From the NCBI GenBank assembly GCA_028554795.2, contig CM068831.1, positions 31,918,644-31,982,643 of the forward strand: DNA of 64,000 bases. Direction: 5' to 3'. A program made the position numbers and the translations under genes. This stretch comes from Sinohyriopsis cumingii (taxonomy: Eukaryota; Mollusca; Bivalvia; Unionida; Unionidae). The stretch's first letter is position 1; every line of letters begins with the position of its first letter. Shown one piece after another: positions 3,954 to 19,606 of this stretch. The notes under the pieces are model-generated. The model was not told the DNA's origin. It searched no databases and saw only the letters and a program-made list of their open reading frames with translations.

Positions 3954-3954
<1 letters not shown>

Positions 3955-4050: not shown

Positions 4051-4051
<1 letters not shown>

Positions 4052-4850
4052 CGGCGCTCGTAAACAATGTAGTAAATGTAACTGTAACATTTGTATTTTT
4101 ACAAGCATTTGAAAATGAGCTACGTTTGACGTAAATTCATTACAGATGACTTATTGTCAGTAAAACAGTTATACTTGCCAAAATAATTCAGCTGTGGCTA
4201 ATAGTTATTCCACAATTTGCACCAAATACGCATAAATGAAAAAATGAAAATTAGGAATATTAATTTATTTAACGCTATTATTTGTTTTTGATATAAAACT
4301 AGCAGCTAATCCATTTGGATTATCTAACAATGCTGGCGGTGGGCGGGAGAGACTTTGAGTCGGAGTTATCTGTCCGATCATCAGCTTCTGATAATACTCA
4401 TTGCTTGATGCATTGATGGATTTTCAAGAACACATTGTATAAATTGACTCCTTGCTAATTATAGTAAACTAGCGTATCCTTTACATTATAATTACAAATT
4501 TTTTGTCCATATATCAGCTGTTCTCAAGCTGTGAACGGCGATCACCATGTGGAAAAGATTCCATTTAACGTCTCTGTATATGTGTACAATCGTTTACGTC
4601 TGGAAACATTTTGCCAACTACAACATAAGCTATAGTGTGCATGTACTTCTGACTAATGTAGGTTACCTGTGGCTTCCACAAAAATCCACATTTATTGTAA
4701 GCATCATTTGACGGATATAGCCAAAGACACCTAAAGTAAAAACATCCGAAATGCACATTATATTTATAGAATTAGGTACATGAATAAAATTCTGTAACAG
4801 ACTGGGTTTCCAGCGGTCAAAGGCTTGTTTAAATGATTTGCATACCCGTG
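4051..4850. other. Intergenic flank left of the palindrome
   Basis: AT-rich DNA without a convincing gene. It is unique flank: the matching stretch beyond the right end of the palindrome (after 19606) is unrelated, so the palindrome boundary is sharp. Confidence 0.5.
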
Positions 4851-4855
4851 CCACA
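4851..4855. repeat. Target-site duplication, left copy
   Basis: CCACA directly precedes the AGCAGCAGG terminus, and the same five bases follow the CCTGCTGCT terminus at 19602-19606. Polintons usually make 6-bp duplications. If one A was lost on the left, CCACAA would be a 6-bp match. Confidence 0.75.
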
Positions 4856-5096
4856 AGCAGCAGGGGGGGCGAATCCGACATTTTGTCCAATCGTCATTTG
4901 GCTTAATTAGTACTTTCTGCACTCAGCGGATCCGGTGTCGTCAGCGCCTGGTAAAAAAAAAACGACGTCGTCGTCGAGGGGATCGTCCGGACGTCATTTG
5001 GTTTAATTAACACCTTCTGCGCGTCGATCCCCAGCGTCGTCAGCGTCCGGTAAGCACATCGACGACCGCGTCGATGTCATCGCCCCCCCTGCTGCT
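4856..5096 (+). repeat. Terminal box A, left outer end
   Basis: A 241-bp unit that begins AGCAGCAGGGGGGGCG and ends CGCCCCCCCTGCTGCT, so the unit has its own short terminal inverted repeat. Inside are two direct repeats of about 63 bp (4892-4954 and 4992-5053), each running from CGTCATTTGG through TTAATTA and a TTCTGC block to CGTCAGCG and GGTAA. Together with box B this gives eight such repeats in the whole element. They may be binding sites for the integrating or replicating enzyme. Confidence 0.85.
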
Positions 5097-5193
5097 ATGA
5101 TCTTACAAACAGAGTGATCACTAACTCCTCCTCTTGTAAATCAATTAGGTTATTTGACTGATCGGTAATTCTAAAATTAATTCTCGTTAAAAA
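5097..5193. other. 97-bp spacer between terminal boxes A and B
   Basis: AT-rich, non-coding, and found only as the mirrored copy at 19264-19360. It has no repeats of its own. Confidence 0.6.
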
Positions 5194-5458
5194 AGCAGCA
5201 GGGGGGGCGAATCCGACATTTTGTCCAATCGTCATTTGGCTTAATTAGTACTTTCTGCACTCAGCGGATCCGGTGTCGTCAGCGCCTGGTAAAAAAAAAA
5301 CGACGTCGTCGTCGTTGTCATCGTCGAGGGGCCAAATCGACAATTGTCCGGACGTCATTTGGTTTAATTAATACCTTCTGCGCGCCGATCCCCAGCGTCG
5401 TCAGCGCCTGGTAAGCAAACGCGACGACCGCGTCGATGTCATCGCCCCCCCTGCTGCT
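5194..5458 (+). repeat. Terminal box B, left inner copy
   Basis: A 265-bp relative of box A with the same AGCAGCAG/CTGCTGCT ends and the same two internal repeats. It differs by an extra stretch of about 25 bp (GTTGTCATCG...CAATTGTC) between the two repeats. It lies 6 bp beyond the end of the ATPase relic. A Polinton end elsewhere in this window (38936-38945) also abuts an ATPase 3' end, so B is probably the ancestral Polinton terminus and A a duplicate. Confidence 0.85.
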
Positions 5459-5464
5459 TACAAT

Positions 5465-5917
5465 TTAACCGAATATTTGGTCAAGTCCGATACGATATCG
5501 TGCCCGAGGGTCATGTAAATTTATCGTTACAAATCCATGTGGGGTCGACTGAGCATGACTAAAAAAGTTTCGAAAAACATTAAAGTCCATGTCACCGCCG
5601 CACCATGTCTGCCAAATATTTCGTAGCGTGTGTGTATCAACGCCGTTGAATACAGCAAGAATATTACAGTTGTCTCTGATTACTTTTGGAACCTGAGTGT
5701 ATCGTTGAGTGACATATATCACGTCAGTGTTTTTATGCCTGCCTCTGGAAAATATCCTAGCTGGGTTTTTTTGATTGTCTAACATAACATCATCGTACAC
5801 GACTAAATTGTTAACGTCGCCATCAATATCATCGATACCCGGTGCATCATTGATACTCGATGACAATCGCTGATGCATTCCCGTTGAACCTTGTAGCATC
5901 GATGGAGGAACTGTCAT
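5465..5917 (-). pseudogene. Polinton-type packaging ATPase, C-terminal half only
   Basis: The 150-residue frame contains the Walker B block NNLVVYDDVMLD, then RIFSRGRHKNTDVIYVTQRY and a conserved C-terminus ending LDQIFG. It aligns by eye with the fuller ATPase relic at 38985-39622, which also has the Walker A motif GAPGSGKT. This copy has no Walker A. Its first residues (MTVPPSM) are encoded by one of the dyad repeats, so the N-terminal half was replaced by that repeat. It cannot be a working A32/FtsK-like ATPase. It is either a relic kept because it lies next to the terminus, or a small protein with a new role. The right-arm copy differs by one residue. Confidence 0.85.
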
Positions 5918-6084
5918 GGTTCCTATAAATAATTATTCTGACATTTCCTCCATGTGTGGCGGGTCAGTTTTGCAAAACAAAATCGATTCAGCATCGATGG
6001 AGGAACTGTCATGGTTCCTATAAATAATTATTCTGACATTTCCTCCATGTGTGGCGGGTCAGTTTTGCAAAACAAAATCGATTT
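5895..6084 (+). repeat. 95-bp tandem duplication holding dyads 1 and 2
   Basis: Two adjacent 95-bp copies (starting at 5895 and 5990) each contain a full nested dyad (5904-5951 and 5999-6046) and the motif TGGCGGGTCAG (5957-5967 and 6052-6062). The block lies between the ATPase relic and the HTH gene, which point away from each other. In the reverse reading each dyad contains a TATA-like CCTATAAATAATTATT. Confidence 0.9.
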
Positions 6085-6157
6085 TTTTACTCTGTCATGG
6101 GGTATTATTGTTATTATTGTTGTTGTTTTACAAAATGAAAAATTTTTTTATTAAATA

Positions 6158-6883
6158 ATGCCCCATCGGCGGATTTTAACCGACGAGGATACCAATGAAA
6201 TAATAAGACTCCGTGGGAAAACACCGATATCGGAAATAGCAGATCGATACAAAATCAGTTACCAGCGTATTTACAAAATATGGAAAAATGAACCCGACAA
6301 CGATATCAGAATGATAGACCTTAGCATCGACGATGAAATAAACCAGATTGTTGATGCACCCAGTGATGCGAATTCATCCATCGACGCCATCGTGGATAAA
6401 CAAACAATTCAGGACTTGCAATGGCGGCTAAATAATTTGACCAACGAGAATAAATCATTGCAACGACAGTTGAAAAACGCGTCAGGCACGGCCGATTATG
6501 ATCGAGTACAACGGCGCTATGATTATTTGCAACAGCGTTATGACGACTTGCAACAGCGACATGATGATATGCAACGGCGCCACGATGATGCGCAACGACG
6601 TCACGATGACATGCGACGCATCATTGGTGGGCTTCAGCACGAACTCGGAAATGTTCGGAAGGAATTGAATGAAGCGCAACACGATAATGCGCTACTGATT
6701 CAGCGAATCACCGAAATGACCGCCGCCCCCAGCGAGCCGGAAATAATCAGAAAAAAGAATAAACCCCGCGAGGACAGACCTCGCGAGGACAAATTTACGA
6801 TCGACGAGATCCCCGGTGTGGTATCTCGCAAGGATATCAAGTTTGTAAACCGCATGGACAAGGCGCTTCAAGATGGCGACTAG
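6158..6883 (+). CDS. HTH and coiled-coil protein, left copy
   Basis: 241 residues. Residues 6-45 look like a helix-turn-helix of the Hin/resolvase or transposase kind (SEIADRYKISYQRIYKIWK). An acidic linker follows, then a long coiled coil at about residues 85-185. The coiled coil includes tandem 7-residue units of the QRRHDDx/QQRYDDx type encoded by 21-bp DNA repeats (about 6500-6620). The C-terminus is basic (KKNKPREDRPREDKF). It is probably an oligomeric DNA-binding protein, perhaps acting at the dyads or the termini; this is inference from domain layout. The stop overlaps the convergent 92-residue gene by 4 bp. This copy has one heptad fewer than the right-arm copy and reads DTNEI where the right reads DTKEI. 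Confidence 0.8.
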   Translation: MPHRRILTDEDTNEIIRLRGKTPISEIADRYKISYQRIYKIWKNEPDNDIRMIDLSIDDEINQIVDAPSDANSSIDAIVDKQTIQDLQWRLNNLTNENKSLQRQLKNASGTADYDRVQRRYDYLQQRYDDLQQRHDDMQRRHDDAQRRHDDMRRIIGGLQHELGNVRKELNEAQHDNALLIQRITEMTAAPSEPEIIRKKNKPREDRPREDKFTIDEIPGVVSRKDIKFVNRMDKALQDGD

Positions 6884-7158
6884 ACCTTTCGTTCGGTAAT
6901 TACCCATACTGTATTAAATCGTTTGACGTCATGGTTTGGAAACGCTCTTTGGTAATATTTGTCGCGAAGGCATAACCGAGCTTTCGCTGAACGACTTTCA
7001 AATACCATACAATTGTATTTATCCCCGCTGGGGAATTTCTGAACCGCATGATATTTTCCGTTCTTGAATTTTACATTGATTGGCATCCTCGGGCAGGACT
7101 TTTTATAGTCGCTAATGACGCTGTCGAATTTCAACGGGTGATATTCCAACAACGACAT
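6880..7158 (-). CDS. Unknown 92-residue protein, left copy
   Basis: Begins MSLLEYHPLKFDSVISDYKK and is rich in basic and aromatic residues, without signal peptide, membrane segment or Cys motif. I do not recognise a family. Its sequence is identical in both arms, which argues that it is a real gene. It diverges from the 148-residue gene with a 45-bp shared promoter region that contains TTTTAATATTTAATT (reverse strand, 7179-7193). Confidence 0.7.
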   Translation of the reverse strand: MSLLEYHPLKFDSVISDYKKSCPRMPINVKFKNGKYHAVQKFPSGDKYNCMVFESRSAKARLCLRDKYYQRAFPNHDVKRFNTVWVITERKV

Positions 7159-7178
7159 TATAATTAAAGCCGTTATTT

Positions 7179-7193
7179 AATTAAATATTAAAA
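7179..7193 (-). promoter_or_regulatory. Shared promoter motif TTTTAATATTTAATT
   Basis: The same 15-mer occurs in the other divergent intergenic region of the arm (11289-11303). Both places are 45-53 bp gaps between divergently transcribed genes, so it is a good candidate for a core promoter or initiator element. Confidence 0.55.
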
Positions 7194-7203
7194 TGATATT
7201 AGA

Positions 7204-7650
7204 ATGATGGGGCTTGGATCATATTATGTTCCTCATGATGGAATAAATTGGATTGACCGCAGCAATAATGATTTACCACCTTATATTCCACCACGGCAAT
7301 TTCGATATGATAAAACCCGAAAAACAACACCCGATGGCGTCGTTATGGGCTGGCAAATAAATACTATCTGTTTGAATATTTCAAAGAGAAGAATTATCGA
7401 GTTTGATTCGGCGCCAGAGACCGCTAGGTACTTTGGTATTTACCAGGTCCACAATGATGACCTTCCCTATTATCTCGTTGATGGCATCGGAGACATTTGG
7501 ATCATACTCCGCGGGAATATTCCTGATGAAAAATGCGCTTGGTTTGATAACCTTGAAACGTTATTCGATAACGCCGTTGATGATCTTCCGTTGCGGCAAC
7601 GCAACGAGGTAGCGCGAATGCTTCGACGGTCGCCGTTGAAACCATCGTGA
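7204..7650 (+). CDS. Unknown 148-residue protein, left copy
   Basis: A soluble-looking protein with N-terminal MMGLGSYYVPHDGINWIDRS and a middle YFGIYQVHNDDLPYYLVDG stretch. No known motif is visible to me. Two adjacent Met codons start the frame, and the ATG at 7204 sits right after the divergent promoter region. It is convergent with the primase-helicase gene, and the gap between them (7651-8086) is filled by five dyads. The right-arm copy differs by one residue (R to C near the C-terminus). Confidence 0.7.
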   Translation: MMGLGSYYVPHDGINWIDRSNNDLPPYIPPRQFRYDKTRKTTPDGVVMGWQINTICLNISKRRIIEFDSAPETARYFGIYQVHNDDLPYYLVDGIGDIWIILRGNIPDEKCAWFDNLETLFDNAVDDLPLRQRNEVARMLRRSPLKPS

Positions 7651-7714
7651 TAACATTTCGGTGGGCGTACAAACGGCTCTATCAAGTTTGGAGAGTCACA
7701 TGTGACTCCATTGA

Positions 7715-8085
7715 TGAGAAAACTGTCACGGTTCTTATAAATAATTATTATGACACTTTCCTCATTCCGACCACACCCGACCATGAGGAACCCCATTACT
7801 CTAACCAGTCTCCGCTGATGGTAACACTTTTCCCATTATTGAGCGTGAAGGAAGTGTCATAATTCCTACAAATAATTATTCTGACATTTCCTTCATTGAT
7901 GAGGAAACTGTCACGGTTCTTGTAAATAATTATTATGACACTTTCCTCATTACTCCATTGATGGGGGGAACTGTCATAGTTCCTATAAATAATTATTATG
8001 ACATTTCCTCCACCGATGGGGGGCTGTCTCCGCTGATGGAGGAACTGTCATAGTTCCTATAAATAATTATTATGACATTTCCTCC
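7715..8085 (+). repeat. Cluster of five dyads (copies 3-7)
   Basis: Copies at 7715-7764, 7846-7895, 7900-7949, 7964-8011 and 8038-8085. Each has an outer arm GGAGGAA or TGAGGAA, an inner arm TGTCATA, an AT-rich core of about 18 bp with TATAAATAATTATT, then the mirrored TATGACA and TTCCTCC. The outer arms covary (GAAGGAA pairs with TTCCTTC, TGAGGAA with TTCCTCA), which points to selection on the inverted pairing. The cluster lies between two convergent genes. Confidence 0.9.
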
Positions 8086-8086
8086 A

Positions 8087-11000
8087 CTATCGGGAAAACC
8101 ATCCATTAACCGACCACACATGGAATCGTAACGCGCTGGTATGTTCGTCCGTCGCGGTAACATCCCCCCCGGCGAATCCAACATCATCGATGGTCTCGTT
8201 GATCCACGCTGGATCGCCTACAAAATCAGATTCGGGCCAGTCGGGATAATACAGCACGTAGTCGGATCGACCTGAGTGCTTAGTACCGTCCGATTGTAAT
8301 CGACCGCCGAATCCCTTGTAGATCGATTTAATTTTTTCAACGATATTTTTTAGCGTCAATTTACCCCTTCTGAACCTCATGTCCGGAAATATATCGCCGA
8401 AATGCTTCAACAGCGCGTTGTACTTGTCAAGTCGGTCTGGTTGCGCTAGCATCTCAGAAATGCTATTGATTAACCCGGCGCGACTCACAGGAACGCTCTT
8501 CACATCAAGTCGATCCGGGATTACATTTGGAAGGTTCAACGCGCCAAGAACATTTCTAACGATTTCAAGTTGCTGCCGGGGACTGATTTTATCGGACCGA
8601 CACGGCGTCGTTGCTACAGCGCTACCGTTATTATACTCGTCAACGAGAACGCGCTGATATCGCTGCAGCCGCGAAATGTTTTTATTCAGGTGTTCTATTC
8701 GGTAGTTATCTAGTTTTCTTACGTCGGTCTGGAACACGTAATTGAGGTACGTCAACGCCTTTTCATATGTCTCCAGTCGCTGTTCGGGGTCGTATTGGTA
8801 GTATTTATTAGCGGTGATTTCATCACTGATTTCATCACCGGTGATTTTATCACTGATTTCACTATTAACCGCAGCAATTCTCTCTCCGATGGAAGATTTT
8901 AAAAAATCGTCTACACGTGGATCACTATTAAGTACAGCGTCGCTGACTCGTTTCTGCTTTTGTTGTTTTTTTTCCTTCCATATTTCGTATTCATCTGGTA
9001 ATTCCCATTCAACTGAATAACCGGTTCGTTTCATCATTTCAACGAGTCTGCACGTGAAATAGCGTTTTGAATTGTTCTCGTCAATAATCGTGCTAATAAA
9101 CATATATCCGTAACCGGTATGTACATCACAGCGATTTGGGGTTCTAAACAGCAACTCCGTCGACGATAAATCCCTTTCATGTGATTCGATTGCGGAAATA
9201 ATATCATCGCGGGTCAGTGGAAGCTCTGTGCGGCTCCGTTTTGTTGCTGAATAATGTACTTCCGAAATATTTCGGAAACGATGGATAGCTTGTTTGGTCG
9301 CCTCTACAGAACCTAATTCCTCGGAAAACACCGTCATGTACTTGAATCGCGGGTCCACAATGGATATCCCGGCCTCGACGGTACAATTGTAGATCACCAC
9401 GTCGATGTTTTCAAACGCCGCAGTGGTATCAGCGAAATCTCGCTGTTTTTCGGCCGGGTCAGTGTACGCATGATAGTACTTTACTCGGTATCCTAATTGC
9501 TGTAATAATTTGGCGAGCTTCTCCACAGAATAATTTCCGCGTCGATTGTGAGTGAATACAACTGCACGATTTCCTCGTCGTAACATGTCCAACAGTTTAC
9601 TGTAGTTGTCTCTGTGAGATTGTTCCACAATAAATTTTTTACCATGATCGGGCCGATATTCGTTGGTGATGATTTTCATGTCCGGGCGATTCAAGTATTT
9701 CCTGAATAATTCTAGGTCATCATTGTTAGCGTCCGCGTCGAGTACAATTACCCGTTTCGCGGATGAAATCAGCCATGTTAGTGTTCCCCAAATCTGTTTA
9801 CCGCGTCTTGATGAGACTATCTGTCGAAGGATTCCGTGCCACTCATCCAGCAATAGAACATCGGGAATTCCCCCGACTCGTACAATTGATTCTATTTGGG
9901 AAATAACCCTGCGATGCTTTTTTGTATCGAATATAATGTCTCCATGGATCATTTCGTACGATTCGAGATTGTAGTCAATGGCGGTCTTTCTAGTAAAGGT
10001 CTTTCTATACGAGACGCACAACACAGACTGATCATCTCGTATTGATTTCCACGCCGACTCTGACTTGCCGAGTCCACAGTGGGATCCGTCCATGTAGTCG
10101 TCGTTGAGGATGATTTTACATCCCCGGCCGCCTTCATGAACGGGTGACTCGTGATAAGTATAATCGGGAGTCCTCTTGGGAAATTCACCGCTGTAGTCCT
10201 TGCGGCGATAATTGAAACCCCTCACGTATTTTTCGTAGAGGGTTCTATCGTCATCACCAGTGATTTTATCGCCGGTGATTTTATCACCATCACGCGGTAT
10301 TATTATTTTTTGCGCGCTTCTGTAACAACCGATTACGAACTGATCAGAGTAAACGCGCACAAATGCGTCAATGGCCTTTCCCTCGATGAATCCACCGATC
10401 TCATTGTATCCGTGACGTCGCTGACATATGTTGCAAAATGAGCCCGCAACTCTCCCCAGCGATATTATGTTGCCGAGTCGATTTGTAGTTCCGGTGATTT
10501 GATCGGGTTGTCCGGACAACAACGTGGAAAATTGCCGAATTTGTTCAGCAGTAAGATCATCACACTCGGTGATTTCAGGTTCCGGTTCGGGCTCAAGTTG
10601 TTCGTAACACGGCTGAATAGAGACCGGACAAGATAGCAGCGTGCCGGTGAATCCAACAGGATAGATCAATCGCTTATCAACGCTGTTTGGTTTCGCCGAC
10701 CTGGTTCCGGACAATTTGATGCTATACAGTCCAGCTTGCGTATCAACATTCCATGCTGGTCTATCCGCGGAGACTTTCTTCAACAGCGATTGATGTTCCT
10801 CGAAATCTACCGGGATCGTTTTTAACATAATGTGATAACCGCCGCTGGTTTCAAAAACCAAAACATCGTTGATGGAATCAACTAACTCATGGAAATACGA
10901 CAACAACTCGGCCAGCGATGGCGTCTTGGAATCCACGTCGATGGTAGGATATCTGCACCGGTGTTTCGGAATAATCTCATTAACAGCGGAATGTCCCCGA

Positions 11001-11275
11001 AATTCCCTTATGTCCGGATCATCTACGAACACGTAGAATTTTCCCATTTGTTGGATGATTACTCCACGAAACCGATAGTTTGCAACGGTGAGGAGTTCCA
11101 TTGCGGACTTTTTACTGGAAACACTCCAGGATGGACCCAAATGCCTTCGGTAGTATTCTCGCACGTCGTGATACGTTTCCGGGGACGTAAAAAAGTCATC
11201 CGGGGACTCCTCATAGTAAGATGTTCCGCGTCCCAATTCGTCGATGAAGGTGTTATTGGAATAATGATTATCCAT
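8087..11275 (-). CDS. Primase fused to herpes-OBP-like SF2 helicase, left copy
   Basis: 1062 residues in two parts. The N-terminal part resembles an archaeo-eukaryotic primase: DVDSK (D113, D115), a GGYHIM histidine (H148), then SIKLSGTRSAKP at about 185-196. A likely zinc site follows (C281, C284, H288, C317). The C-terminal part is an SF2 helicase: Walker A GSHCGLGKS (397-405), LLLDEWH (474-480), AVVFTHNRRG (571-580), NCTVEAGISI (630-639) and QAIHRFRN (662-669). Motif V/VI wording recalls the herpesvirus origin-binding helicase family (Herpes_ori_bp). It probably unwinds and primes the element's origin. It diverges from the zinc-ribbon gene across 53 bp. The right copy differs at five positions, none in a catalytic motif (H129Y, K547T, T688I, and T to P and N to D further on). 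Confidence 0.88.
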   Translation of the reverse strand: MDNHYSNNTFIDELGRGTSYYEESPDDFFTSPETYHDVREYYRRHLGPSWSVSSKKSAMELLTVANYRFRGVIIQQMGKFYVFVDDPDIREFRGHSAVNEIIPKHRCRYPTIDVDSKTPSLAELLSYFHELVDSINDVLVFETSGGYHIMLKTIPVDFEEHQSLLKKVSADRPAWNVDTQAGLYSIKLSGTRSAKPNSVDKRLIYPVGFTGTLLSCPVSIQPCYEQLEPEPEPEITECDDLTAEQIRQFSTLLSGQPDQITGTTNRLGNIISLGRVAGSFCNICQRRHGYNEIGGFIEGKAIDAFVRVYSDQFVIGCYRSAQKIIIPRDGDKITGDKITGDDDRTLYEKYVRGFNYRRKDYSGEFPKRTPDYTYHESPVHEGGRGCKIILNDDYMDGSHCGLGKSESAWKSIRDDQSVLCVSYRKTFTRKTAIDYNLESYEMIHGDIIFDTKKHRRVISQIESIVRVGGIPDVLLLDEWHGILRQIVSSRRGKQIWGTLTWLISSAKRVIVLDADANNDDLELFRKYLNRPDMKIITNEYRPDHGKKFIVEQSHRDNYSKLLDMLRRGNRAVVFTHNRRGNYSVEKLAKLLQQLGYRVKYYHAYTDPAEKQRDFADTTAAFENIDVVIYNCTVEAGISIVDPRFKYMTVFSEELGSVEATKQAIHRFRNISEVHYSATKRSRTELPLTRDDIISAIESHERDLSSTELLFRTPNRCDVHTGYGYMFISTIIDENNSKRYFTCRLVEMMKRTGYSVEWELPDEYEIWKEKKQQKQKRVSDAVLNSDPRVDDFLKSSIGERIAAVNSEISDKITGDEISDEITANKYYQYDPEQRLETYEKALTYLNYVFQTDVRKLDNYRIEHLNKNISRLQRYQRVLVDEYNNGSAVATTPCRSDKISPRQQLEIVRNVLGALNLPNVIPDRLDVKSVPVSRAGLINSISEMLAQPDRLDKYNALLKHFGDIFPDMRFRRGKLTLKNIVEKIKSIYKGFGGRLQSDGTKHSGRSDYVLYYPDWPESDFVGDPAWINETIDDVGFAGGDVTATDEHTSALRFHVWSVNGWFSR

Positions 11276-11288
11276 TATACTGTATGCT

Positions 11289-11303
11289 TTTTAATATTTA
11301 ATT
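11289..11303 (+). promoter_or_regulatory. Shared promoter motif TTTTAATATTTAATT
   Basis: Second occurrence in the arm, between the primase-helicase and zinc-ribbon genes. Same 15-mer as at 7179-7193 in opposite orientation. Confidence 0.55.
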
Positions 11304-11328
11304 GAATGCTTATTAATGGTTAATAATA

Positions 11329-11622
11329 ATGGTTAATCCGGCGCTTGCTGTCAACAAATGCAAATGGCTCCCCCAGGGATCAAAAGCCCCGTGTGGAAAA
11401 AACTGTTACGGCGAGTTTTGCGGGGTGCATAATAGTAGATCGAAACAGGGGCGCAAGGACGGTCCTCAGCCCTGTCTCGGATGTGGCACGGGAGTTCGAG
11501 GAAAGATTAGAATTTGTATCGGCTGTGGAAGCCCCCAGTATCGGTCCGCGGTAGAATACTGCCAACGAAAGAATAGACCGATACCATCCCCGGAAGAATT
11601 CTTAAAATCACGACGGGGTTGA
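11329..11622 (+). CDS. Small zinc-ribbon protein, left copy
   Basis: 97 residues with two Cys-rich clusters: CKW...PCGKNCYGEFCGVH in the first half, and PCLGCG and ICIGCG pairs in the second. The spacing fits one or two bound zinc ions. It has basic stretches (SRSKQGRK, RGKIRI) and is probably a nucleic-acid-binding protein. It reads toward the palindrome centre, away from the primase-helicase gene, and is followed by the third dyad cluster. I chose ATG 11329 over the out-of-frame ATG at 11345 because only the first frame has the paired cysteines. Confidence 0.8.
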   Translation: MVNPALAVNKCKWLPQGSKAPCGKNCYGEFCGVHNSRSKQGRKDGPQPCLGCGTGVRGKIRICIGCGSPQYRSAVEYCQRKNRPIPSPEEFLKSRRG

Positions 11623-11647
11623 ACGGGATTAATGACCCGTCACATAT

Positions 11648-11869
11648 GGAGGAAATGTCAATAGTTCCTCCATCAATAAACCGACCTGTCACACATGAGG
11701 AAAGTGTCATAATAATTATTTATAGGAACTATGACAGATCCTTCATTGATGGAGACAGTTCCCGATAATGGAGGAAATGTCATAATAATTATTTATAGGA
11801 ATTATGACAGTTCCCGATAATGGAGGAAATGTCATAATAATTATTTATAAGAACTATGACAGTTCCTCC
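11648..11869 (+). repeat. Cluster of dyads (copies 8-11), one internally deleted
   Basis: Copies at 11696-11744, 11770-11814 and 11822-11869 are full or nearly full. The copy at 11648-11671 is only 24 bp: the two outer arms remain but most of the inner dyad and all of the AT-rich core are missing. The cluster follows the zinc-ribbon gene. Confidence 0.88.
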
Positions 11870-12199
11870 ATCGATGGAAACTGGTCAGAGTAAAAAACTG
11901 ACCCGCCACACGTTCCCATCAATACTGGTTGATTTTGTAAACACCAATCGCGTTTCACTAGAATCGTAATACCGTTAGCGTGCTTGTTAATTTACCAGCC
12001 AGGATGCCCACGTAATCACACAAAAAAAAAAATAACAGAGGCGTTTATTTATACTGCGATTGTTAACATGTTAATGGGGGAGGATAATGATTTACAAGTA
12101 AATTATCTATCGCGGCGATGGGTTACAAAAAAATGATTTACAAAATATTTTTTTTCTGCGGTAAGAAATATGTCAGTTGTTTTTATTGTTGTTGTTATT
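11870..12199 (+). other. Non-coding centre-proximal segment, left arm
   Basis: About 330 bp without a gene up to the palindrome spacer. Holds CAGAGTAAAAAACTGACCCG (11886-11905), poly-A and poly-T runs, the small dyad GATTTACAAGTAAATTATC and a GTTAACATGTTAAT block. It is the sequence closest to the axis of symmetry, so an origin or telomere-like hairpin could lie here. Confidence 0.5.
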
Positions 12200-12234
12200 A
12201 CAAGGTCTCTACTAGTAGTAACTACTTAGGGGTC
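12200..12234. other. Central asymmetric spacer of the palindrome
   Basis: 35 bp between the arms that is not mirrored, with ACTAGT near its middle. In single-stranded form it would be the loop of a 7.3-kb hairpin. It could mark a former hairpin telomere or a recombination joint. Confidence 0.8.
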
Positions 12235-12563
12235 AATAACAACAACAATAAAAACAACTGACATATTTCTTACCGCAGAAAAAAAATATTTTGTAAATCA
12301 TTTTTTTGTAACCCATCGCCGCGATAGATAATTTACTTGTAAATCATTATCCTCCCCCATTAACATGTTAACAATCGCAGTATAAATAAACGCCTCTGTT
12401 ATTTTTTTTTTGTGTGATTACGTGGGCATCCTGGCTGGTAAATTAACAAGCACGCTAACGGTATTACGATTCTAGTGAAACGCGATTGGTGTTTACAAAA
12501 TCAACCAGTATTGGTGGGAACGTGTGGCGGGTCAGTTTTTTACTCTGACCAGTTTCCATCGAT
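12235..12563 (-). other. Non-coding centre-proximal segment, right arm
   Basis: Mirror of 11870-12199. No gene; same poly-A/T runs and small dyads. Confidence 0.5.
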
Positions 12564-12785
12564 GGAGGAACTGTCATAGTTCTTATAAATAATTATTATG
12601 ACATTTCCTCCATTATCGGGAACTGTCATAATTCCTATAAATAATTATTATGACATTTCCTCCATTATCGGGAACTGTCTCCATCAATGAAGGATCTGTC
12701 ATAGTTCCTATAAATAATTATTATGACACTTTCCTCATGTGTGACAGGTCGGTTTATTGATGGAGGAACTATTGACATTTCCTCC
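12564..12785 (-). repeat. Dyad cluster, right mirror of copies 8-11
   Basis: Copies at 12564-12611, 12619-12663, 12689-12737 and the deleted 24-bp version at 12762-12785. The deleted copy is present in both arms, so the deletion is older than the arm duplication. Confidence 0.88.
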
Positions 12786-12810
12786 ATATGTGACGGGTCA
12801 TTAATCCCGT

Positions 12811-13104
12811 TCAACCCCGTCGTGATTTTAAGAATTCTTCCGGGGATGGTATCGGTCTATTCTTTCGTTGGCAGTATTCTACCGCGGACCGATACTGGGG
12901 GCTTCCACAGCCGATACAAATTCTAATCTTTCCTCGAACTCCCGTGCCACATCCGAGACAGGGCTGAGGACCGTCCTTGCGCCCCTGTTTCGATCTACTA
13001 TTATGCACCCCGCAAAACTCGCCGTAACAGTTTTTTCCACACGGGGCTTTTGATCCCTGGGGGAGCCATTTGCATTTGTTGACAGCAAGCGCCGGATTAA
13101 CCAT
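12811..13104 (-). CDS. Small zinc-ribbon protein, right copy
   Basis: Identical in protein sequence to the left-arm copy (11329-11622), with the same Cys clusters. Complete conservation between arms of a protein this small supports a real, maintained gene or very recent duplication. Confidence 0.8.
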   Translation of the reverse strand: MVNPALAVNKCKWLPQGSKAPCGKNCYGEFCGVHNSRSKQGRKDGPQPCLGCGTGVRGKIRICIGCGSPQYRSAVEYCQRKNRPIPSPEEFLKSRRG

Positions 13105-13129
13105 TATTATTAACCATTAATAAGCATTC

Positions 13130-13144
13130 AATTAAATATTAAAA
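13130..13144 (-). promoter_or_regulatory. Shared promoter motif, right mirror
   Basis: Mirror of 11289-11303, in the 53-bp gap between the zinc-ribbon and primase-helicase genes. Confidence 0.5.
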
Positions 13145-13157
13145 AGCATACAGTATA

Positions 13158-16100
13158 ATGGATAATCATTATTCCAATAACACCTTCATCGACGAATTGG
13201 GACGCGGAACATCTTACTATGAGGAGTCCCCGGATGACTTTTTTACGTCCCCGGAAACGTATCACGACGTGCGAGAATACTACCGAAGGCATTTGGGTCC
13301 ATCCTGGAGTGTTTCCAGTAAAAAGTCCGCAATGGAACTCCTCACCGTTGCAAACTATCGGTTTCGTGGAGTAATCATCCAACAAATGGGAAAATTCTAC
13401 GTGTTCGTAGATGATCCGGACATAAGGGAATTTCGGGGACATTCCGCTGTTAATGAGATTATTCCGAAACACCGGTGCAGATATCCTACCATCGACGTGG
13501 ATTCCAAGACGCCATCGCTGGCCGAGTTGTTGTCGTATTTCTATGAGTTAGTTGATTCCATCAACGATGTTTTGGTTTTTGAAACCAGCGGCGGTTATCA
13601 CATTATGTTAAAAACGATCCCGGTAGATTTCGAGGAACATCAATCGCTGTTGAAGAAAGTCTCCGCGGATAGACCAGCATGGAATGTTGATACGCAAGCT
13701 GGACTGTATAGCATCAAATTGTCCGGAACCAGGTCGGCGAAACCAAACAGCGTTGATAAGCGATTGATCTATCCTGTTGGATTCACCGGCACGCTGCTAT
13801 CTTGTCCGGTCTCTATTCAGCCGTGTTACGAACAACTTGAGCCCGAACCGGAACCTGAAATCACCGAGTGTGATGATCTTACTGCTGAACAAATTCGGCA
13901 ATTTTCCACGTTGTTGTCCGGACAACCCGATCAAATCACCGGAACTACAAATCGACTCGGCAACATAATATCGCTGGGGAGAGTTGCGGGCTCATTTTGC
14001 AACATATGTCAGCGACGTCACGGATACAATGAGATCGGTGGATTCATCGAGGGAAAGGCCATTGACGCATTTGTGCGCGTTTACTCTGATCAGTTCGTAA
14101 TCGGATGTTACAGAAGCGCGCAAAAAATAATAATACCGCGTGATGGTGATAAAATCACCGGCGATAAAATCACTGGTGATGACGATAGAACCCTCTACGA
14201 AAAATACGTGAGGGGTTTCAATTATCGCCGCAAGGACTACAGCGGTGAATTTCCCAAGAGGACTCCCGATTATACTTATCACGAGTCACCCGTTCATGAA
14301 GGCGGCCGGGGATGTAAAATCATCCTCAACGACGACTACATGGACGGATCCCACTGTGGACTCGGCAAGTCAGAGTCGGCGTGGAAATCAATACGAGATG
14401 ATCAGTCTGTGTTGTGCGTCTCGTATAGAAAGACCTTTACTAGAAAGACCGCCATTGACTACAATCTCGAATCGTACGAAATGATCCATGGAGACATTAT
14501 ATTCGATACAAAAAAGCATCGCAGGGTTATTTCCCAAATAGAATCAATTGTACGAGTCGGGGGAATTCCCGATGTTCTATTGCTGGATGAGTGGCACGGA
14601 ATCCTTCGACAGATAGTCTCATCAAGACGCGGTAAACAGATTTGGGGAACACTAACATGGCTGATTTCATCCGCGAAACGGGTAATTGTACTCGACGCGG
14701 ACGCTAACAATGATGACCTAGAATTATTCAGGAAATACTTGAATCGCCCGGACATGAAAATCATCACCAACGAATATCGGCCCGATCATGGTAAAACATT
14801 TATTGTGGAACAATCTCACAGAGACAACTACAGTAAACTGTTGGACATGTTACGACGAGGAAATCGTGCAGTTGTATTCACTCACAATCGACGCGGAAAT
14901 TATTCTGTGGAGAAGCTCGCCAAATTATTACAGCAATTAGGATACCGAGTAAAGTACTATCATGCGTACACTGACCCGGCCGAAAAACAGCGAGATTTCG
15001 CTGATACCACTGCGGCGTTTGAAAACATCGACGTGGTGATCTACAATTGTACCGTCGAGGCCGGGATATCCATTGTGGACCCGCGATTCAAGTACATGAC
15101 GGTGTTTTCCGAGGAATTAGGTTCTGTAGAGGCGACCAAACAAGCTATCCATCGTTTCCGAAATATTTCGGAAGTACATTATTCAGCAACAAAACGGAGC
15201 CGCACAGAGCTTCCACTGATCCGCGATGATATTATTTCCGCAATCGAATCACATGAAAGGGATTTATCGTCGACGGAGTTGCTGTTTAGAACCCCAAATC
15301 GCTGTGATGTACATACCGGTTACGGATATATGTTTATTAGCACGATTATTGACGAGAACAATTCAAAACGCTATTTCACGTGCAGACTCGTTGAAATGAT
15401 GAAACGAACCGGTTATTCAGTTGAATGGGAATTACCAGATGAATACGAAATATGGAAGGAAAAAAAACAACAAAAGCAGAAACGAGTCAGCGACGCTGTA
15501 CTTAATAGTGATCCACGTGTAGACGATTTTTTAAAATCTTCCATCGGAGAGAGAATTGCTGCGGTTAATAGTGAAATCAGTGATAAAATCACCGGTGATG
15601 AAATCAGTGATGAAATCACCGCTAATAAATACTACCAATACGACCCCGAACAGCGACTGGAGCCATATGAAAAGGCGTTGACGTACCTCAATTACGTGTT
15701 CCAGACCGACGTAAGAAAACTAGATAACTACCGAATAGAACACCTGAATAAAAACATTTCGCGGCTGCAGCGATATCAGCGCGTTCTCGTTGACGAGTAT
15801 AATAACGGCAGCGCTGTAGCAACGACGCCGTGTCGGTCCGATAAAATCAGTCCCCGGCAGCAACTTGAAATCGTTAGAAATGTTCTTGGCGCGTTGAACC
15901 TTCCAAATGTAATCCCGGATCGACTTGATGTGAAGAGCGTTCCTGTGAGTCGCGCCGGGTTAATCAATAGCATTTCTGAGATGCTAGCGCAACCAGACCG
16001 ACTTGACAAGTACAACGCGCTGTTGAAGCATTTCGGCGATATATTTCCGGACATGAGGTTCAGAAGGGGTAAATTGACGCTAAAAGATATCGTTGAAAAA

Positions 16101-16346
16101 ATTAAATCGATCTACAAGGGATTCGGCGGTCGATTACAATCGGACGGTACTAAGCACTCAGGTCGATCCGACTACGTGCTGTATTATCCCGACTGGCCCG
16201 AATCTGATTTTGTAGGCGATCCAGCGTGGATCAACGAGACCATCGATGATGTTGGATTCGCCGGGGGGGATGTTACCGCGACGGACGAACATACCAGCGC
16301 GTTACGATTCCATGTGTGGTCGGTTAATGGATGGTTTTCCCGATAG
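13158..16346 (+). CDS. Primase fused to herpes-OBP-like SF2 helicase, right copy
   Basis: Full 1062-residue mirror of the left-arm gene with all primase and helicase motifs intact. Replacements relative to the left copy: Y129, T547, I688, a P in RLEPYE (about 867) and a D in LTLKDIV. Both copies could be functional. The coding DNA holds several GATAAAATCACCGG-type repeats that encode DKITGDKITG (331-340) and a second DKITGDEISDE block further on. Confidence 0.88.
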   Translation: MDNHYSNNTFIDELGRGTSYYEESPDDFFTSPETYHDVREYYRRHLGPSWSVSSKKSAMELLTVANYRFRGVIIQQMGKFYVFVDDPDIREFRGHSAVNEIIPKHRCRYPTIDVDSKTPSLAELLSYFYELVDSINDVLVFETSGGYHIMLKTIPVDFEEHQSLLKKVSADRPAWNVDTQAGLYSIKLSGTRSAKPNSVDKRLIYPVGFTGTLLSCPVSIQPCYEQLEPEPEPEITECDDLTAEQIRQFSTLLSGQPDQITGTTNRLGNIISLGRVAGSFCNICQRRHGYNEIGGFIEGKAIDAFVRVYSDQFVIGCYRSAQKIIIPRDGDKITGDKITGDDDRTLYEKYVRGFNYRRKDYSGEFPKRTPDYTYHESPVHEGGRGCKIILNDDYMDGSHCGLGKSESAWKSIRDDQSVLCVSYRKTFTRKTAIDYNLESYEMIHGDIIFDTKKHRRVISQIESIVRVGGIPDVLLLDEWHGILRQIVSSRRGKQIWGTLTWLISSAKRVIVLDADANNDDLELFRKYLNRPDMKIITNEYRPDHGKTFIVEQSHRDNYSKLLDMLRRGNRAVVFTHNRRGNYSVEKLAKLLQQLGYRVKYYHAYTDPAEKQRDFADTTAAFENIDVVIYNCTVEAGISIVDPRFKYMTVFSEELGSVEATKQAIHRFRNISEVHYSATKRSRTELPLIRDDIISAIESHERDLSSTELLFRTPNRCDVHTGYGYMFISTIIDENNSKRYFTCRLVEMMKRTGYSVEWELPDEYEIWKEKKQQKQKRVSDAVLNSDPRVDDFLKSSIGERIAAVNSEISDKITGDEISDEITANKYYQYDPEQRLEPYEKALTYLNYVFQTDVRKLDNYRIEHLNKNISRLQRYQRVLVDEYNNGSAVATTPCRSDKISPRQQLEIVRNVLGALNLPNVIPDRLDVKSVPVSRAGLINSISEMLAQPDRLDKYNALLKHFGDIFPDMRFRRGKLTLKDIVEKIKSIYKGFGGRLQSDGTKHSGRSDYVLYYPDWPESDFVGDPAWINETIDDVGFAGGDVTATDEHTSALRFHVWSVNGWFSR

Positions 16347-16347
16347 T

Positions 16348-16718
16348 GGAGGAAATGTCATAATAATTATTTATAGGAACTATGACAGTTCCTCCATCAG
16401 CGGAGACAGCCCCCCATCGGTGGAGGAAATGTCATAATAATTATTTATAGGAACTATGACAGTTCCCCCCATCAATGGAGTAATGAGGAAAGTGTCATAA
16501 TAATTATTTATAAGAACCGTGACAGTTTCCTCATCAATGAAGGAAATGTCAGAATAATTATTTGTAGGAATTATGACACTTCCTTCACGCTCAATAATGG
16601 GAAAAGTGTTACCATCAGCGGAGACTGGTTAGAGTAATGGGGTTCCTCATGGTCGGGTGTGGTCGGAATGAGGAAAGTGTCATAATAATTATTTATAAGA
16701 ACCGTGACAGTTTCCTCA
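16348..16718 (-). repeat. Dyad cluster, right mirror of copies 3-7
   Basis: Copies at 16348-16395, 16422-16469, 16484-16533, 16538-16587 and 16669-16718, between the convergent primase-helicase and 148-residue genes. Confidence 0.9.
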
Positions 16719-16782
16719 TCAATGGAGTCACATGTAACTCTCCAAACTTGATAGAGCCGTTTGTACGCCCACCGAAATGTTA

Positions 16783-17229
16783 TCACGATGGTTTCAACGG
16801 CGACCGTCGAAGCATTCGCGCTACCTCGTTGCATTGCCGCAACGGAAGATCATCAACGGCGTTATCGAATAACGTTTCAAGGTTATCAAACCAAGCGCAT
16901 TTTTCATCAGGAATATTCCCGCGGAGTATGATCCAAATGTCTCCGATGCCATCAACGAGATAATAGGGAAGGTCATCATTGTGGACCTGGTAAATACCAA
17001 AGTACCTAGCGGTCTCTGGCGCCGAATCAAACTCGATAATTCTTCTCTTTGAAATATTCAAACAGATAGTATTTATTTGCCAGCCCATAACGACGCCATC
17101 GGGTGTTGTTTTTCGGGTTTTATCATATCGAAATTGCCGTGGTGGAATATAAGGTGGTAAATCATTATTGCTGCGGTCAATCCAATTTATTCCATCATGA
17201 GGAACATAATATGATCCAAGCCCCATCAT
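16783..17229 (-). CDS. Unknown 148-residue protein, right copy
   Basis: Mirror of 7204-7650 with one difference: LPLRQC here, LPLRQR on the left. No family recognised. Confidence 0.7.
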   Translation of the reverse strand: MMGLGSYYVPHDGINWIDRSNNDLPPYIPPRQFRYDKTRKTTPDGVVMGWQINTICLNISKRRIIEFDSAPETARYFGIYQVHNDDLPYYLVDGIGDIWIILRGNIPDEKCAWFDNLETLFDNAVDDLPLRQCNEVARMLRRSPLKPS

Positions 17230-17239
17230 TCTAATATCA

Positions 17240-17254
17240 TTTTAATATTTAATT
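17240..17254 (+). promoter_or_regulatory. Shared promoter motif, right mirror
   Basis: Mirror of 7179-7193 in the divergent gap between the 148- and 92-residue genes. Confidence 0.5.
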
Positions 17255-17274
17255 AAATAACGGCTTTAATTATA

Positions 17275-17553
17275 ATGTCGTTGTTGGAATATCACCCGTT
17301 GAAATTCGACAGCGTCATTAGCGACTATAAAAAGTCCTGCCCGAGGATGCCAATCAATGTAAAATTCAAGAACGGAAAATATCATGCGGTTCAGAAATTC
17401 CCCAGCGGGGATAAATACAATTGTATGGTATTTGAAAGTCGTTCAGCGAAAGCTCGGTTATGCCTTCGCGACAAATATTACCAAAGAGCGTTTCCAAACC
17501 ATGACGTCAAACGATTTAATACAGTATGGGTAATTACCGAACGAAAGGTCTAG
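17275..17553 (+). CDS. Unknown 92-residue protein, right copy
   Basis: Identical in protein sequence to the left copy. It overlaps the end of the convergent HTH/coiled-coil gene by 4 bp. Confidence 0.7.
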   Translation: MSLLEYHPLKFDSVISDYKKSCPRMPINVKFKNGKYHAVQKFPSGDKYNCMVFESRSAKARLCLRDKYYQRAFPNHDVKRFNTVWVITERKV

Positions 17554-18296
17554 TCGCCATCTTGAAGCGCCTTGTCCATGCGGTTTACAAACTTGATATC
17601 CTTGCGAGATACCACACCGGGGATCTCGTCGATCGTAAATTTGTCCTCGCGAGGTCTGTCCTCGCGGGGTTTATTCTTTTTTCTGATTATTTCCGGCTCG
17701 CTGGGGGCGGCGGTCATTTCGGTGATTCGCTGAATCAGTAGCGCATTATCGTGTTGCGCTTCATTCAATTCCTTCCGAACATTTCCGAGTTCGTGCTGAA
17801 GCCCACCAATGATGCGTCGCATGTCATCGTGACGTCGTTGCGCATCATCGTGGCGCCGTTGCGCATCATCGTGGCGCCGTTGCATATCATCATGTCGCTG
17901 TTGCAAGTCGTCATAACGCTGTTGCAAATAATCATAGCGCCGTTGTACTCGATCATAATCGGCCGTGCCTGACGCGTTTTTCAACTGTCGTTGCAATGAT
18001 TTATTCTCGTTGGTCAAATTATTTAGCCGCCATTGCAAGTCCTGAATTGTTTGTTTATCCACGATGGCGTCGATGGATGAATTCGCATCACTGGGTGCAT
18101 CAACAATCTGGTTTATTTCATCGTCGATGCTAAGGTCTATCATTCTGATATCGTTGTCGGGTTCATTTTTCCATATTTTGTAAATACGCTGGTAACTGAT
18201 TTTGTATCGATCTGCTATTTCCGATATCGGTGTTTTCCCACGGAGTCTTATTATTTCCTTGGTATCCTCGTCGGTTAAAATCCGCCGATGGGGCAT
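17550..18296 (-). CDS. HTH and coiled-coil protein, right copy
   Basis: 248 residues: the left copy plus one extra heptad (RRHDDAQ) in the coiled coil, and K instead of N in DTKEI. The 21-bp repeat has expanded or contracted since the arms were duplicated, showing that the arms evolve separately. Confidence 0.8.
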   Translation of the reverse strand: MPHRRILTDEDTKEIIRLRGKTPISEIADRYKISYQRIYKIWKNEPDNDIRMIDLSIDDEINQIVDAPSDANSSIDAIVDKQTIQDLQWRLNNLTNENKSLQRQLKNASGTADYDRVQRRYDYLQQRYDDLQQRHDDMQRRHDDAQRRHDDAQRRHDDMRRIIGGLQHELGNVRKELNEAQHDNALLIQRITEMTAAPSEPEIIRKKNKPREDRPREDKFTIDEIPGVVSRKDIKFVNRMDKALQDGD

Positions 18297-18407
18297 TATT
18301 TAATAAAAAAAATTTTTATTTTGTAAAACAACAACAATAACAACAATAATACCCCATGACAGAGTAAAAAAATCGATTTTGTTTTGCAAAACTGACCCGC
18401 CACACAT

Positions 18408-18559
18408 GGAGGAAATGTCAGAATAATTATTTATAGGAACCATGACAGTTCCTCCATCGATGCTGAATCGATTTTGTTTTGCAAAACTGACCCGCCACAC
18501 ATGGAGGAAATGTCAGAATAATTATTTATAGGAACCATGACAGTTCCTCCATCGATGCT
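18408..18559 (-). repeat. Tandem dyads, right mirror of copies 1-2
   Basis: Full dyads at 18408-18455 and 18503-18550, each preceded by the mirrored TGGCGGGTCAG motif. The outer dyad again supplies the first codons of the ATPase relic. Confidence 0.9.
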
Positions 18560-18989
18560 ACAAGGTTCAACGGGAATGCATCAGCGATTGTCATCGAGTA
18601 TCAATGATGCACCGGGTATCGATGATATTGATGGCGACGTTAACAATTTAGTCGTGTACGATGATGTTATGTTAGACAATCAAAAAAACCCAGCTAGGAT
18701 ATTTTCCAGAGGCAGGCATAAAAACACTGACGTGATATATGTCACTCAACGATACACTCAGATTCCAAAAGTAATCAGAGACAACTGTAATATTCTTGCT
18801 GTATTCAACGGCGTTGATACACACACGCTACGAAATATTTGGCAGACATGGTGCGGCGGTGACATGGACTTTAATGTTTTTCGAAACTTTTTTAGTCATG
18901 CTCAGTCGACCCCACATGGATTTGTAACGATAAATTTACATGACCCTCGGGCACGATATCGTATCGGACTTGACCAAATATTCGGTTAA
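18537..18989 (+). pseudogene. Packaging ATPase C-terminal half, right copy
   Basis: Mirror of 5465-5917 with one replacement (QIPKV here, QVPKV on the left). It lacks Walker A in the same way, so the truncation came before the arm duplication. Confidence 0.85.
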
Positions 18990-18995
18990 ATTGTA

Positions 18996-19263
18996 AGCAG
19001 CAGGGGGGGGCGATGACATCGACGCGGTCGTCGCGTTTGCTTACCAGGCGCTGACGACGCTGGGGATCGGCGCGCAGAAGGTATTAATTAAACCAAATGA
19101 CGTCCGGACAATTGTCGATTTGGCCCCTCGACGATGACAACGACGACGACGTCGTTTTTTTTTTACCAGGCGCTGACGACACCGGATCCGCTGAGTGCAG
19201 AAAGTACTAATTAAGCCAAATGACGATTGGACAAAATGTCGGATTCGCCCCCCCCCTGCTGCT
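18996..19263 (-). repeat. Terminal box B, right inner copy
   Basis: Mirror of 5194-5458, 268 bp, slightly longer because the G/C and poly-T runs differ in length. Confidence 0.85.
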
Positions 19264-19360
19264 TTTTTAACGAGAATTAATTTTAGAATTACCGATCAGT
19301 CAAATAACCTAATTGATTTACAAGAGGAGGAGTTAGTGATCACTCTGTTTGTAAGATCAT
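19264..19360. other. 97-bp spacer between right terminal boxes
   Basis: Mirror of 5097-5193; no gene. Confidence 0.6.
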
Positions 19361-19601
19361 AGCAGCAGGGGGGGCGATGACATCGACGCGGTCGTCGATG
19401 TGCTTACCGGACGCTGACGACGCTGGGGATCGACGCGCAGAAGGTGTTAATTAAACCAAATGACGTCCGGACGATCCCCTCGACGACGACGTCGTTTTTT
19501 TTTTTACCAGGCGCTGACGACACCGGATCCGCTGAGTGCAGAAAGTACTAATTAAGCCAAATGACGATTGGACAAAATGTCGGATTCGCACCCCTGCTGC
19601 T
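19361..19601 (-). repeat. Terminal box A, right outer end
   Basis: Mirror of 4856-5096, 241 bp, with both internal repeats. The final 15 bases carry an A inside the C run, unlike the left end. Confidence 0.85.
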
Positions 19602-19606
19602 CCACA
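19602..19606. repeat. Target-site duplication, right copy
   Basis: CCACA directly after the CCTGCTGCT terminus, matching 4851-4855. Confidence 0.75.

Follow-up and report, generated by a model that had tools for sequence, protein, structure and literature searches.

Gene-bearing palindromic elements with Polinton-type ends form a family in the genome of Sinohyriopsis cumingii

Long palindromes are usually unstable and accidental in origin. What, then, is the 14.7-kb palindrome found in a 64-kb stretch of the Sinohyriopsis cumingii genome (hereafter the window)? Its left arm (4856–12199, 7,344 bp) and its right arm (12235–19601, 7,367 bp, the mirror copy on the minus strand) align end to end in BLAST with 99.39% identity, 18 mismatches and 6 gaps (19 mismatches in MAFFT), while the central 35 bp (12200–12234) are unpaired across the axis. 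Transitions make up 12 of the 18 mismatches, and one of the indels is a 21-bp in-frame tandem unit. The near-perfect palindrome of the original prediction, with ~7.3-kb arms around 35 bp, is therefore real, and the sequence at both ends also bears out the predicted matching termini (AGCAGCAGG/CCTGCTGCT, of the AGCAGC...GCTGCT type) flanked on either side by CCACA (4851–4855 and 19602–19606), a 5-bp target-site duplication. A 6-bp duplication (CCACAA), conceivable in this element with the loss of one terminal A, was set aside because the other resolved elements fit best at 5 bp. Each outer end carries two terminal units of 241 and 265 bp, 97 bp apart. On the left, unit 1 (4856–5096, plus strand), which is bounded by the 17-bp inverted repeat AGCAGCAGGGGGGGCGA, is followed by a 97-bp spacer (5097–5193, plus strand) whose last 36 bp are B-end sequence at 97%, and then by unit 2 (5194–5458, plus strand); on the right, unit 2 lies at 18996–19260 and unit 1 at 19361–19601 (both minus strand). 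Two further elements with such terminal units are located inside the window.

Searches of the 2.9-Gb host genome yielded further copies, after which the idea of a single accident was dropped. With the replication gene (43 of 1,194 candidates scored), inverted arms were found at 25 of the 26 loci listed, comprising 17 inverted pairs, most of them known from the inverted gene pair alone and not from the entire palindrome, four pairs recognised via 600-bp fetches, and four in which the other arm is inverted and partly deleted; the remaining locus is non-palindromic. With the palindrome centre (40 of 90 candidates scored), inverted arms were found at 39 of the 40 loci listed: both halves abut in 35, four are inverted and have lost sequence at the axis or next to it, and one is non-palindromic; 16 of 91 match rows, faint outer fragments of loci included before, do not enter these counts. 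Of eight palindromes examined at the axis, seven have a loop of 35 nt, constant in length and place; the exception is C3, whose axis was not at the midpoint. Neither end of C3 nor the left end of C16 was found in the sequence fetched for them. In a scan that allowed a shift of up to 9 bases at each end, all six palindromes with both ends located, at six different sites, proved to end in the AGC type and to be flanked by 5-bp target duplications; C19b fits the end pattern if one terminal triplet is missing. The view of the palindrome as a single inserted element is supported by these ends, and the search for other copies with the same ends was positive, with dozens of loci having a common axis. 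A family of palindromic elements with a common axis and homogeneous arms is thereby established in the host genome.

The ends also match all 11 local Polinton-like elements that were located by both ends. Unit 2 is ~95–97% identical to their ATPase-side terminal repeat and occurs at this identity in the A-ends of all 11. These elements are 14.6–16.0 kb long, and 5-bp duplications were found in 10 of them, one being without a resolved duplication. Vertebrate Mavericks have (AGT)2//(ACT)2 ends and a 6-bp target duplication (PMC8097293), whereas 5 bp is duplicated by the palindromes and the local Polinton-like elements alike. Like Polintons/Mavericks, the palindrome has terminal repeats, ends in a doubled trinucleotide (here (AGC)2//(GCT)2), duplicates its target, contains an ATPase fragment and is of similar length, but it differs in being a full palindrome, in having its own Rep-like gene and iterons, and in arms without a recognised integrase, polymerase or capsid gene. 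One Polinton-like copy carries an A32 ATPase, an rve integrase and an SF1-type helicase; polymerase B and capsid gave no match in 10 of its 14 ORFs (at least 150 codons) that were scanned, a result that lends no support to protein-primed replication or packaging. The label "Polinton-type" given to the palindrome holds for its ends only: integrase, polymerase and capsid families were unmatched by Pfam in the six arm ORFs examined.

What do the arms encode instead? From the outside inwards, the left arm carries a fragment of an A32-type packaging ATPase (5465–5932, minus strand; residues ~90–220, without the Walker A part), which is decayed in the family members C12 and C1, a 241-aa helix-turn-helix and coiled-coil protein (6158–6883, plus strand), a small conserved protein of ~92 aa (6880–7158, minus strand), a 148-aa protein (7204–7650, plus strand) that is strongly diverged in C1 and C12 (40–46% aa identity), an intact origin-binding-protein/Rep-like SF2 helicase of 1062 aa (8087–11275, minus strand), and a 96-aa cysteine-rich protein, zinc-ribbon-like by weak match (11332–11622, plus strand). 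A second intact copy of the Rep/OBP-like gene lies in the right arm (13158–16346, plus strand). Comparison of the window element with both arms of C1 and of C12 gave overall dN/dS values of 0.10–0.19 for the core genes: ~0.11 for the helix-turn-helix protein, 0.10–0.12 for the ~92-aa protein, 0.15 for the helicase and 0.16–0.19 for the cysteine-rich protein. Pfam matches among the six arm ORFs were Herpes_ori_bp/Helicase_C (the helicase), the Pox_A32 fragment and HTH_7 with the coiled coil, the rest being weak and sub-threshold. Among NCBIfam families, the Rep/OBP-like protein comes closest to CyRepA1, a plasmid protein, with a score under the cut-off, and its helicase region weakly matches solved replication origin-binding proteins. 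A structure model built from two sequences reached a pLDDT of 29. The N-terminal 390 residues have no Pfam match; a reading of this part as a primase (AEP), suggested by the impression of a motif that Pfam does not back, is not claimed.

Each arm moreover contains ten iterons (TGTCA-N22-TGACA, 32 bp): iterons 1–2 within a 95-bp tandem duplication (5912–6038), iterons 3–7 between two convergent genes (7724–8077) and iterons 8–10 at 11705–11861 in the left arm. The palindrome thus holds 20 iterons, against none in the remaining 49,243 bp of the window; 50 simple two-base block shuffles served as control. A function as promoters is unlikely for five of the ten iterons per arm, since these are located between two convergent gene ends.

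Are the arms of each element alike because they were made together? In an alignment of ~600 sites from 12 elements, the two arms differ at 0–2 sites in 11 of them, compared with 1.8–8.6% between elements, and the two arms are sisters in the corresponding tree in 11 of 12. In the exception, C2, the arms are unlike at 23 of 601 sites (3.8%). In long alignments, the arms of the window element, C12 and C1 diverge by 0.20–0.26%, whereas blocks of more than 700 bp from the window element are 6–14% different from C1 and C12. Structural variants are symmetric as well: in the window element each arm carries units 1 and 2, in C1 each arm has a B-type unit with spacer and lacks unit 2, in C12 each arm has the unit-2 type alone, and the diverged 148-aa gene is present on both arms in C1 and in C12. 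We consider it probable that the palindrome is a satellite of the Polinton-like elements that possesses an initiator/iteron replicon of its own, and that it is regenerated from one arm via a hairpin intermediate.

Alternatively, the palindrome could be ancestral, its arms being kept identical within the chromosome by gene conversion, as in Y-chromosome palindromes, and moved by ordinary integrase-mediated transposition. The uneven arm differences of C1 (11 of 14 in the outer 2,085 bp, three in the inner 5,080 bp) and the similar arm divergence of the three elements in long alignment are in favor of this scenario, but we regard it as unlikely, because lesions of single arms persist: C1 has a 2.4-kb insertion in one arm alone, C17 has stop codons in one arm only, the stops of C10 differ between the arms, four loci have one-arm deletions, and the C2 arms have drifted 3.8% apart. 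These unrepaired lesions argue that arm identity dates from insertion.

Regeneration from one arm has also to be weighed against a scenario in which each palindrome is a one-step derivative of a single-arm element. There is one candidate, the non-palindromic copy, or monomer (7,384 bp), which has its own 5-bp duplication, B-type ends matching unit 1 plus spacer of the palindrome at 92–93%, and ~8 nt that pair beside its loop (TTGTTATA/AATAACAA), followed by B-end sequence. ODIRA (PMC4689423) likewise starts from an origin and a central short interrupted inverted repeat, and yields hairpin-capped DNA and then an inverted dimer; it is a chromosomal amplification tested in yeast, whereas the palindrome is mobile and has ends of its own. 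Nevertheless, the monomer accounts for only one of the 26 replication-gene loci and one of the 40 centre loci listed, and it is nested among palindromes in the 600-bp tree (support 0.92 with C4), which makes this origin improbable. Its right stem is absent from all 11 B-ends of the Polinton-like elements, and therefore the monomer may itself derive from a palindrome. An assembly artefact, from fold-back reads or glued copies, was ruled out as barely conceivable even though palindromes are a known assembly hazard, given the unlike flanks on the two sides, the 5-bp duplications at six sites, the arm-specific substitutions (mostly transitions) and the same axis at many independent loci; equally far-fetched is the transposition of the palindrome as cargo of two small terminal-unit elements, for although a 17-bp inverted repeat encloses every unit separately, all 11 Polinton-like elements have a terminal unit at both ends and no single unit within the window is flanked by a duplication.

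How would regeneration from one arm proceed? The Rep/OBP-like helicase would start the element's own replication at the iterons. If the free DNA is self-complementary, copying that reaches the loop could turn back, as a hairpin or snap-back strand, and use the first arm to remake the second; the arms would then be born identical at every insertion. The data suggest that, upon moving, one half of the element's genome is rebuilt from the other. From the common ends and the duplication length we infer that the local Polinton-like elements may provide the rve integrase that, in trans, inserts the palindrome via the common terminal repeats. The palindromes measure 13.5–14.8 kb, three of six being 13.5–14.4 kb and just under the size range of the Polinton-like elements; doubling to this size may, speculatively, matter for packaging. 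More tentatively, the family could be an inherited, obligately self-complementary lineage whose free form is a ~7-kb linear DNA with a 35-nt hairpin loop at one end and a Polinton-type terminus at the other, which would be doubled by copying round the loop to roughly the size of the Polinton-like elements and inserted by, perhaps packaged with, the Polinton-like machinery; each cycle would rebuild one arm from the other, and the element would thereby homogenise itself. In this genome, members of the family are usually inserted as a gene-bearing palindrome, and the axis was kept while the elements diverged. The family offers a naturally occurring animal model for hairpin-mediated replication, shows how a small replicon can bear the ends of a virus-like element, and connects genome doubling with the size of the presumed helper in a way that can be tested.

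Several known systems share single features with the palindrome. In foldback (FB/TU/Galileo-like) transposons, long inverted repeats built from short non-coding tandem units form most of the element, with target duplications. The window palindrome likewise consists mostly of inverted repeats and has target duplications, but its arms bear genes with low dN/dS around a single 35-bp loop that is conserved. Adenovirus symmetric recombinants and self-complementary AAV hold two facing copies of one genome end, as expected from strand fold-back; these are sporadic or engineered, whereas the palindrome belongs to a family with dozens of insertions. Transpovirons are small, linear, hitch-hiking DNAs with terminal repeats that depend on a larger virus, in contrast to which the present element is palindromic and has ends that link it to the Polinton-like elements residing in an animal genome. 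Among the papers listed by searches on palindromic or inverted-dimer Polintons and on adenovirus fold-back palindromes, none describes such an element, which is weak evidence for its absence from print as the coverage of subscription journals was thin. The helicase region, by its Herpes_ori_bp match, resembles herpesvirus-type origin-binding proteins and the SF2 helicases of mriyaviruses (PMC11253617), while the HUH endonuclease and capsid of mriyaviruses are not recognised in the palindrome arms: neither Pfam nor PHROG families of HUH endonuclease or double-jelly-roll capsid matched any of the six arm ORFs. No relatives of the Rep and ATPase proteins were found in viral contigs or in one scan of genome contigs, nor of the iteron and terminal patterns in viral contigs, and plasmids gave no match. 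The phage search returned only two records of one Halomonas phage, matching in RepA at 26.8%.

The palindrome at 4856-19601 proved to be as originally described: its arms of 7,344 bp (4856-12199) and 7,367 bp (12235-19601) are 99.39% identical over the whole length and 35 bp apart (loop, 12200-12234), and CCACA lies on both flanks, adjoining the AGCAGC/GCTGCT ends. From the outside inwards, each arm carries two terminal units (unit 1, 241 bp; unit 2, 265 bp) separated by a 97-bp spacer, an A32-type ATPase fragment without the Walker A part, iterons, a helix-turn-helix (HTH)/coiled-coil gene, a small gene on the opposite strand, a 148-aa gene, further iterons, a 1062-aa Rep (an origin-binding-protein/Rep-like SF2 helicase, opposite strand), a small cysteine-rich gene and a last set of iterons, with about 340 bp remaining before the loop. 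The arms differ by 18 substitutions (12 transitions; 19 by the MAFFT count) and 6 indels, and 10 of the 18 fall within six reading frames (8 amino-acid changes, 2 silent, no stops). By comparison with homologues, each arm has acquired its own changes, the left one at Rep residue 836 and in the ATPase fragment, the right one at Rep residues 547, 688 and 977 and in the 148-aa gene; the arms are two DNA stretches with separate mutation histories.

Rep matched Pfam Herpes_ori_bp over the cut-off (3.8e-12) and solved replication origin-binding proteins at 6e-5; the plasmid protein CyRepA1 gave 2.9e-30, but with 105.7 bits under a cut-off of 200. The iterons, ten per arm, are imperfect palindromes of a constant 32 bp with an A+T-rich centre; the window has none in its remaining 49,243 bp, and shuffling the arm sequence in blocks left a mean of 0.14. 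Their arrangement is like that of a herpesvirus origin, a likeness of layout read from sequence. Relatives of Rep and the 148-aa protein (P0001, P0046, P0047; 69-75% identical) were seen on short ENA and JGI contigs, and the only two species-labelled sequences among 44 ATPase homologues come from Sinanodonta woodiana, a freshwater mussel, which makes a unionid the probable host.

Searching the 2.90-Gb assembly, in which the window is C8:31918644-31982643, with Rep gave at least 45 matches at at least 26 loci (best 43 of 1,194 candidates scored). Among the matches listed, 17 of 26 loci are inverted pairs directly, while the nine single loci comprise four with an inverted partner, four whose other arm is inverted and partly deleted, and one that is non-palindromic; the pair on contig C12, known from a unit-2/ATPase search, is absent from these matches. 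A search with the centre gave at least 40 loci (best 40 of 90 candidates scored). Among those listed, both halves abut in inverted order at 35; four, also inverted, have lost sequence at the axis or next to it, and the last is the same non-palindromic copy. Joined, 21 Rep pairs and 35 centres amount to at least 47 loci, nine common to both (match within 3 kb). Other copies with the same ends were looked for and found, six palindromes being read at both ends: C8 (14,746 bp, duplication CCACA), C12 (14,840 bp, ATATG), C11 (13,524 bp, TAGGG), C13 (13,779 bp, ATTGT), C19b (14,377 bp, GCAAT, lacking one terminal triplet) and C1 (16,921 bp, CATCA), the last including a 2.4-kb insertion in the left arm only (3538-5939 of stretch L009) that holds a 506-codon open frame. 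The left end of the C16 element and the axis and ends of the C3 element were not found in the stretches examined around them.

Arms differ at 18-19 of 7,342 compared sites in C8, 15 of 7,402 in C12 and 14 of 7,165 in C1, and C8 diverges from C1 and C12 by 6-14% in blocks over 700 bp. In 600-bp Rep pieces from 12 elements (nine from the Rep matches listed, plus C8, C1 and C12), 0-2 sites separate the two arms of 11 elements, unlike those of the inverted pair on C2 (18491041-18500013; 23 of 601 sites), and divergence between elements is 1.8-8.6% (mean 5.2%, 66 comparisons). A self-complementary replication intermediate that remakes one arm from the other would predict such identity within and divergence between elements, as well as symmetric structural variants and a single loop. 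Excerpts of PMC4689423 describe ODIRA in yeast, where hairpin-capped DNA with an origin is shown to give an inverted dimer, whereas here we infer the hairpin step. That gene conversion in the chromosome keeps the arms identical seems unlikely to us: the uneven spread of arm differences in C1 would fit it, but one-arm insertions, deletions and stops persist unrepaired, which argues against efficient chromosomal repair.

Comparing C8 with C1 and C12 by a simple Nei-Gojobori count puts dN/dS at 0.11 (HTH gene), 0.10-0.12 (small gene), 0.15 (Rep) and 0.16-0.19 (cysteine-rich gene); with values this low, the lineage has been under selection during its own copying. Rep is open on both arms of C8 and C1 and broken on both arms of C12, and 42 of the 45 Rep matches listed have no stop. 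With four stop codons in C12 and most of its length lost in C1, the ATPase fragment seems to be a relic.

Outside the palindrome, the window holds only two AGC[AG]GC...GC[TC]GCT pairs 230-270 bp apart. One bounds a 239-bp unit (38707-38945, AGCGGC...GCTGCT) adjoining a broken ATPase gene (38977-39622) of the same family as the arm fragment, followed from 40136 by an rve integrase (Pfam match over cut-off); this unit is identified mainly by place, length and ends, because its identity to unit 1 is no more than about 49% and, in one test, 1 of 300 random windows scored higher. We read 38707-41054 as a degraded Polinton-like element, its integrase coding sequence bearing a 400-bp tandem duplication (80% identical). 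The other pair bounds a 257-bp unit (57573-57829), followed by genes giving sub-cut-off double-jelly-roll and adenovirus-protease model matches; 57573-64000 is the left end of a further element, with weak capsid-like and adenovirus-protease-like genes, that continues beyond the window edge.

Unit 2 together with the 3' portion of the ATPase recurs at at least 34 further places in the genome at 93-97% (best 40 of 5,011 candidates scored). Eleven Polinton-like elements were located by both ends (14,564-16,005 bp), ten with a 5-bp target duplication and C9a ambiguous; their B-type end, opposite the ATPase side, is the counterpart of unit 1 plus spacer. We call these elements Polinton-like because the 15,058-bp C19 copy has an A32 ATPase, an rve integrase, a protein of 1186 residues that matches an SF1-type helicase (4206-7763 in stretch L013) and an HNH protein, and none of its ten scanned ORFs matched polymerase B or capsid. 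Vertebrate Mavericks end in doubled trinucleotides and make target duplications of 6 bp (PMC8097293), whereas the local elements and palindromes have 5 bp. As ends and duplication length are common to both, the integrase of the Polinton-like elements would insert the palindrome in trans; that it is packaged with this presumed helper is speculation from its length.

We consider it probable that the palindrome is a satellite of Polinton-like elements, regenerated from one arm via a hairpin. That it represents an inherited lineage with an obligately self-complementary genome is a bolder and more tentative reading. Both readings become slightly less likely because no polymerase B was found among the ORFs scanned in the presumed helper. 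Among the papers listed by searches of open-access literature, none described a Polinton-type family built as palindromes. Each part has known counterparts (Polinton-type ends, Rep/iteron replicons, inverted dimers), but the inherited palindromic architecture has none to our knowledge.

The single non-palindromic copy, or monomer (C19:13855233-13862616; 7,384 bp, duplication GCAGA), has two B-type ends, the right one starting 8 nt past the loop (TTGTTATA-35-AATAACAA). Either palindromes arise by fold-back from molecules of this kind, or the monomer is a product of hairpin opening at the loop and B-end joining; the latter is favoured, because the monomer nests among palindromes in the 600-bp tree (0.92 with C4) and its right stem is absent from all 11 B-ends examined. 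The loop is a special point under either reading. Element ends at C16:60354162 and C19:26361867 have one AGC triplet rather than two, and slide-back priming in protein-primed replication could give such ends. The window also contains a 146-bp inverted repeat pair (36423-36568 and 37634-37779; 98% identical, about 1.1 kb between).
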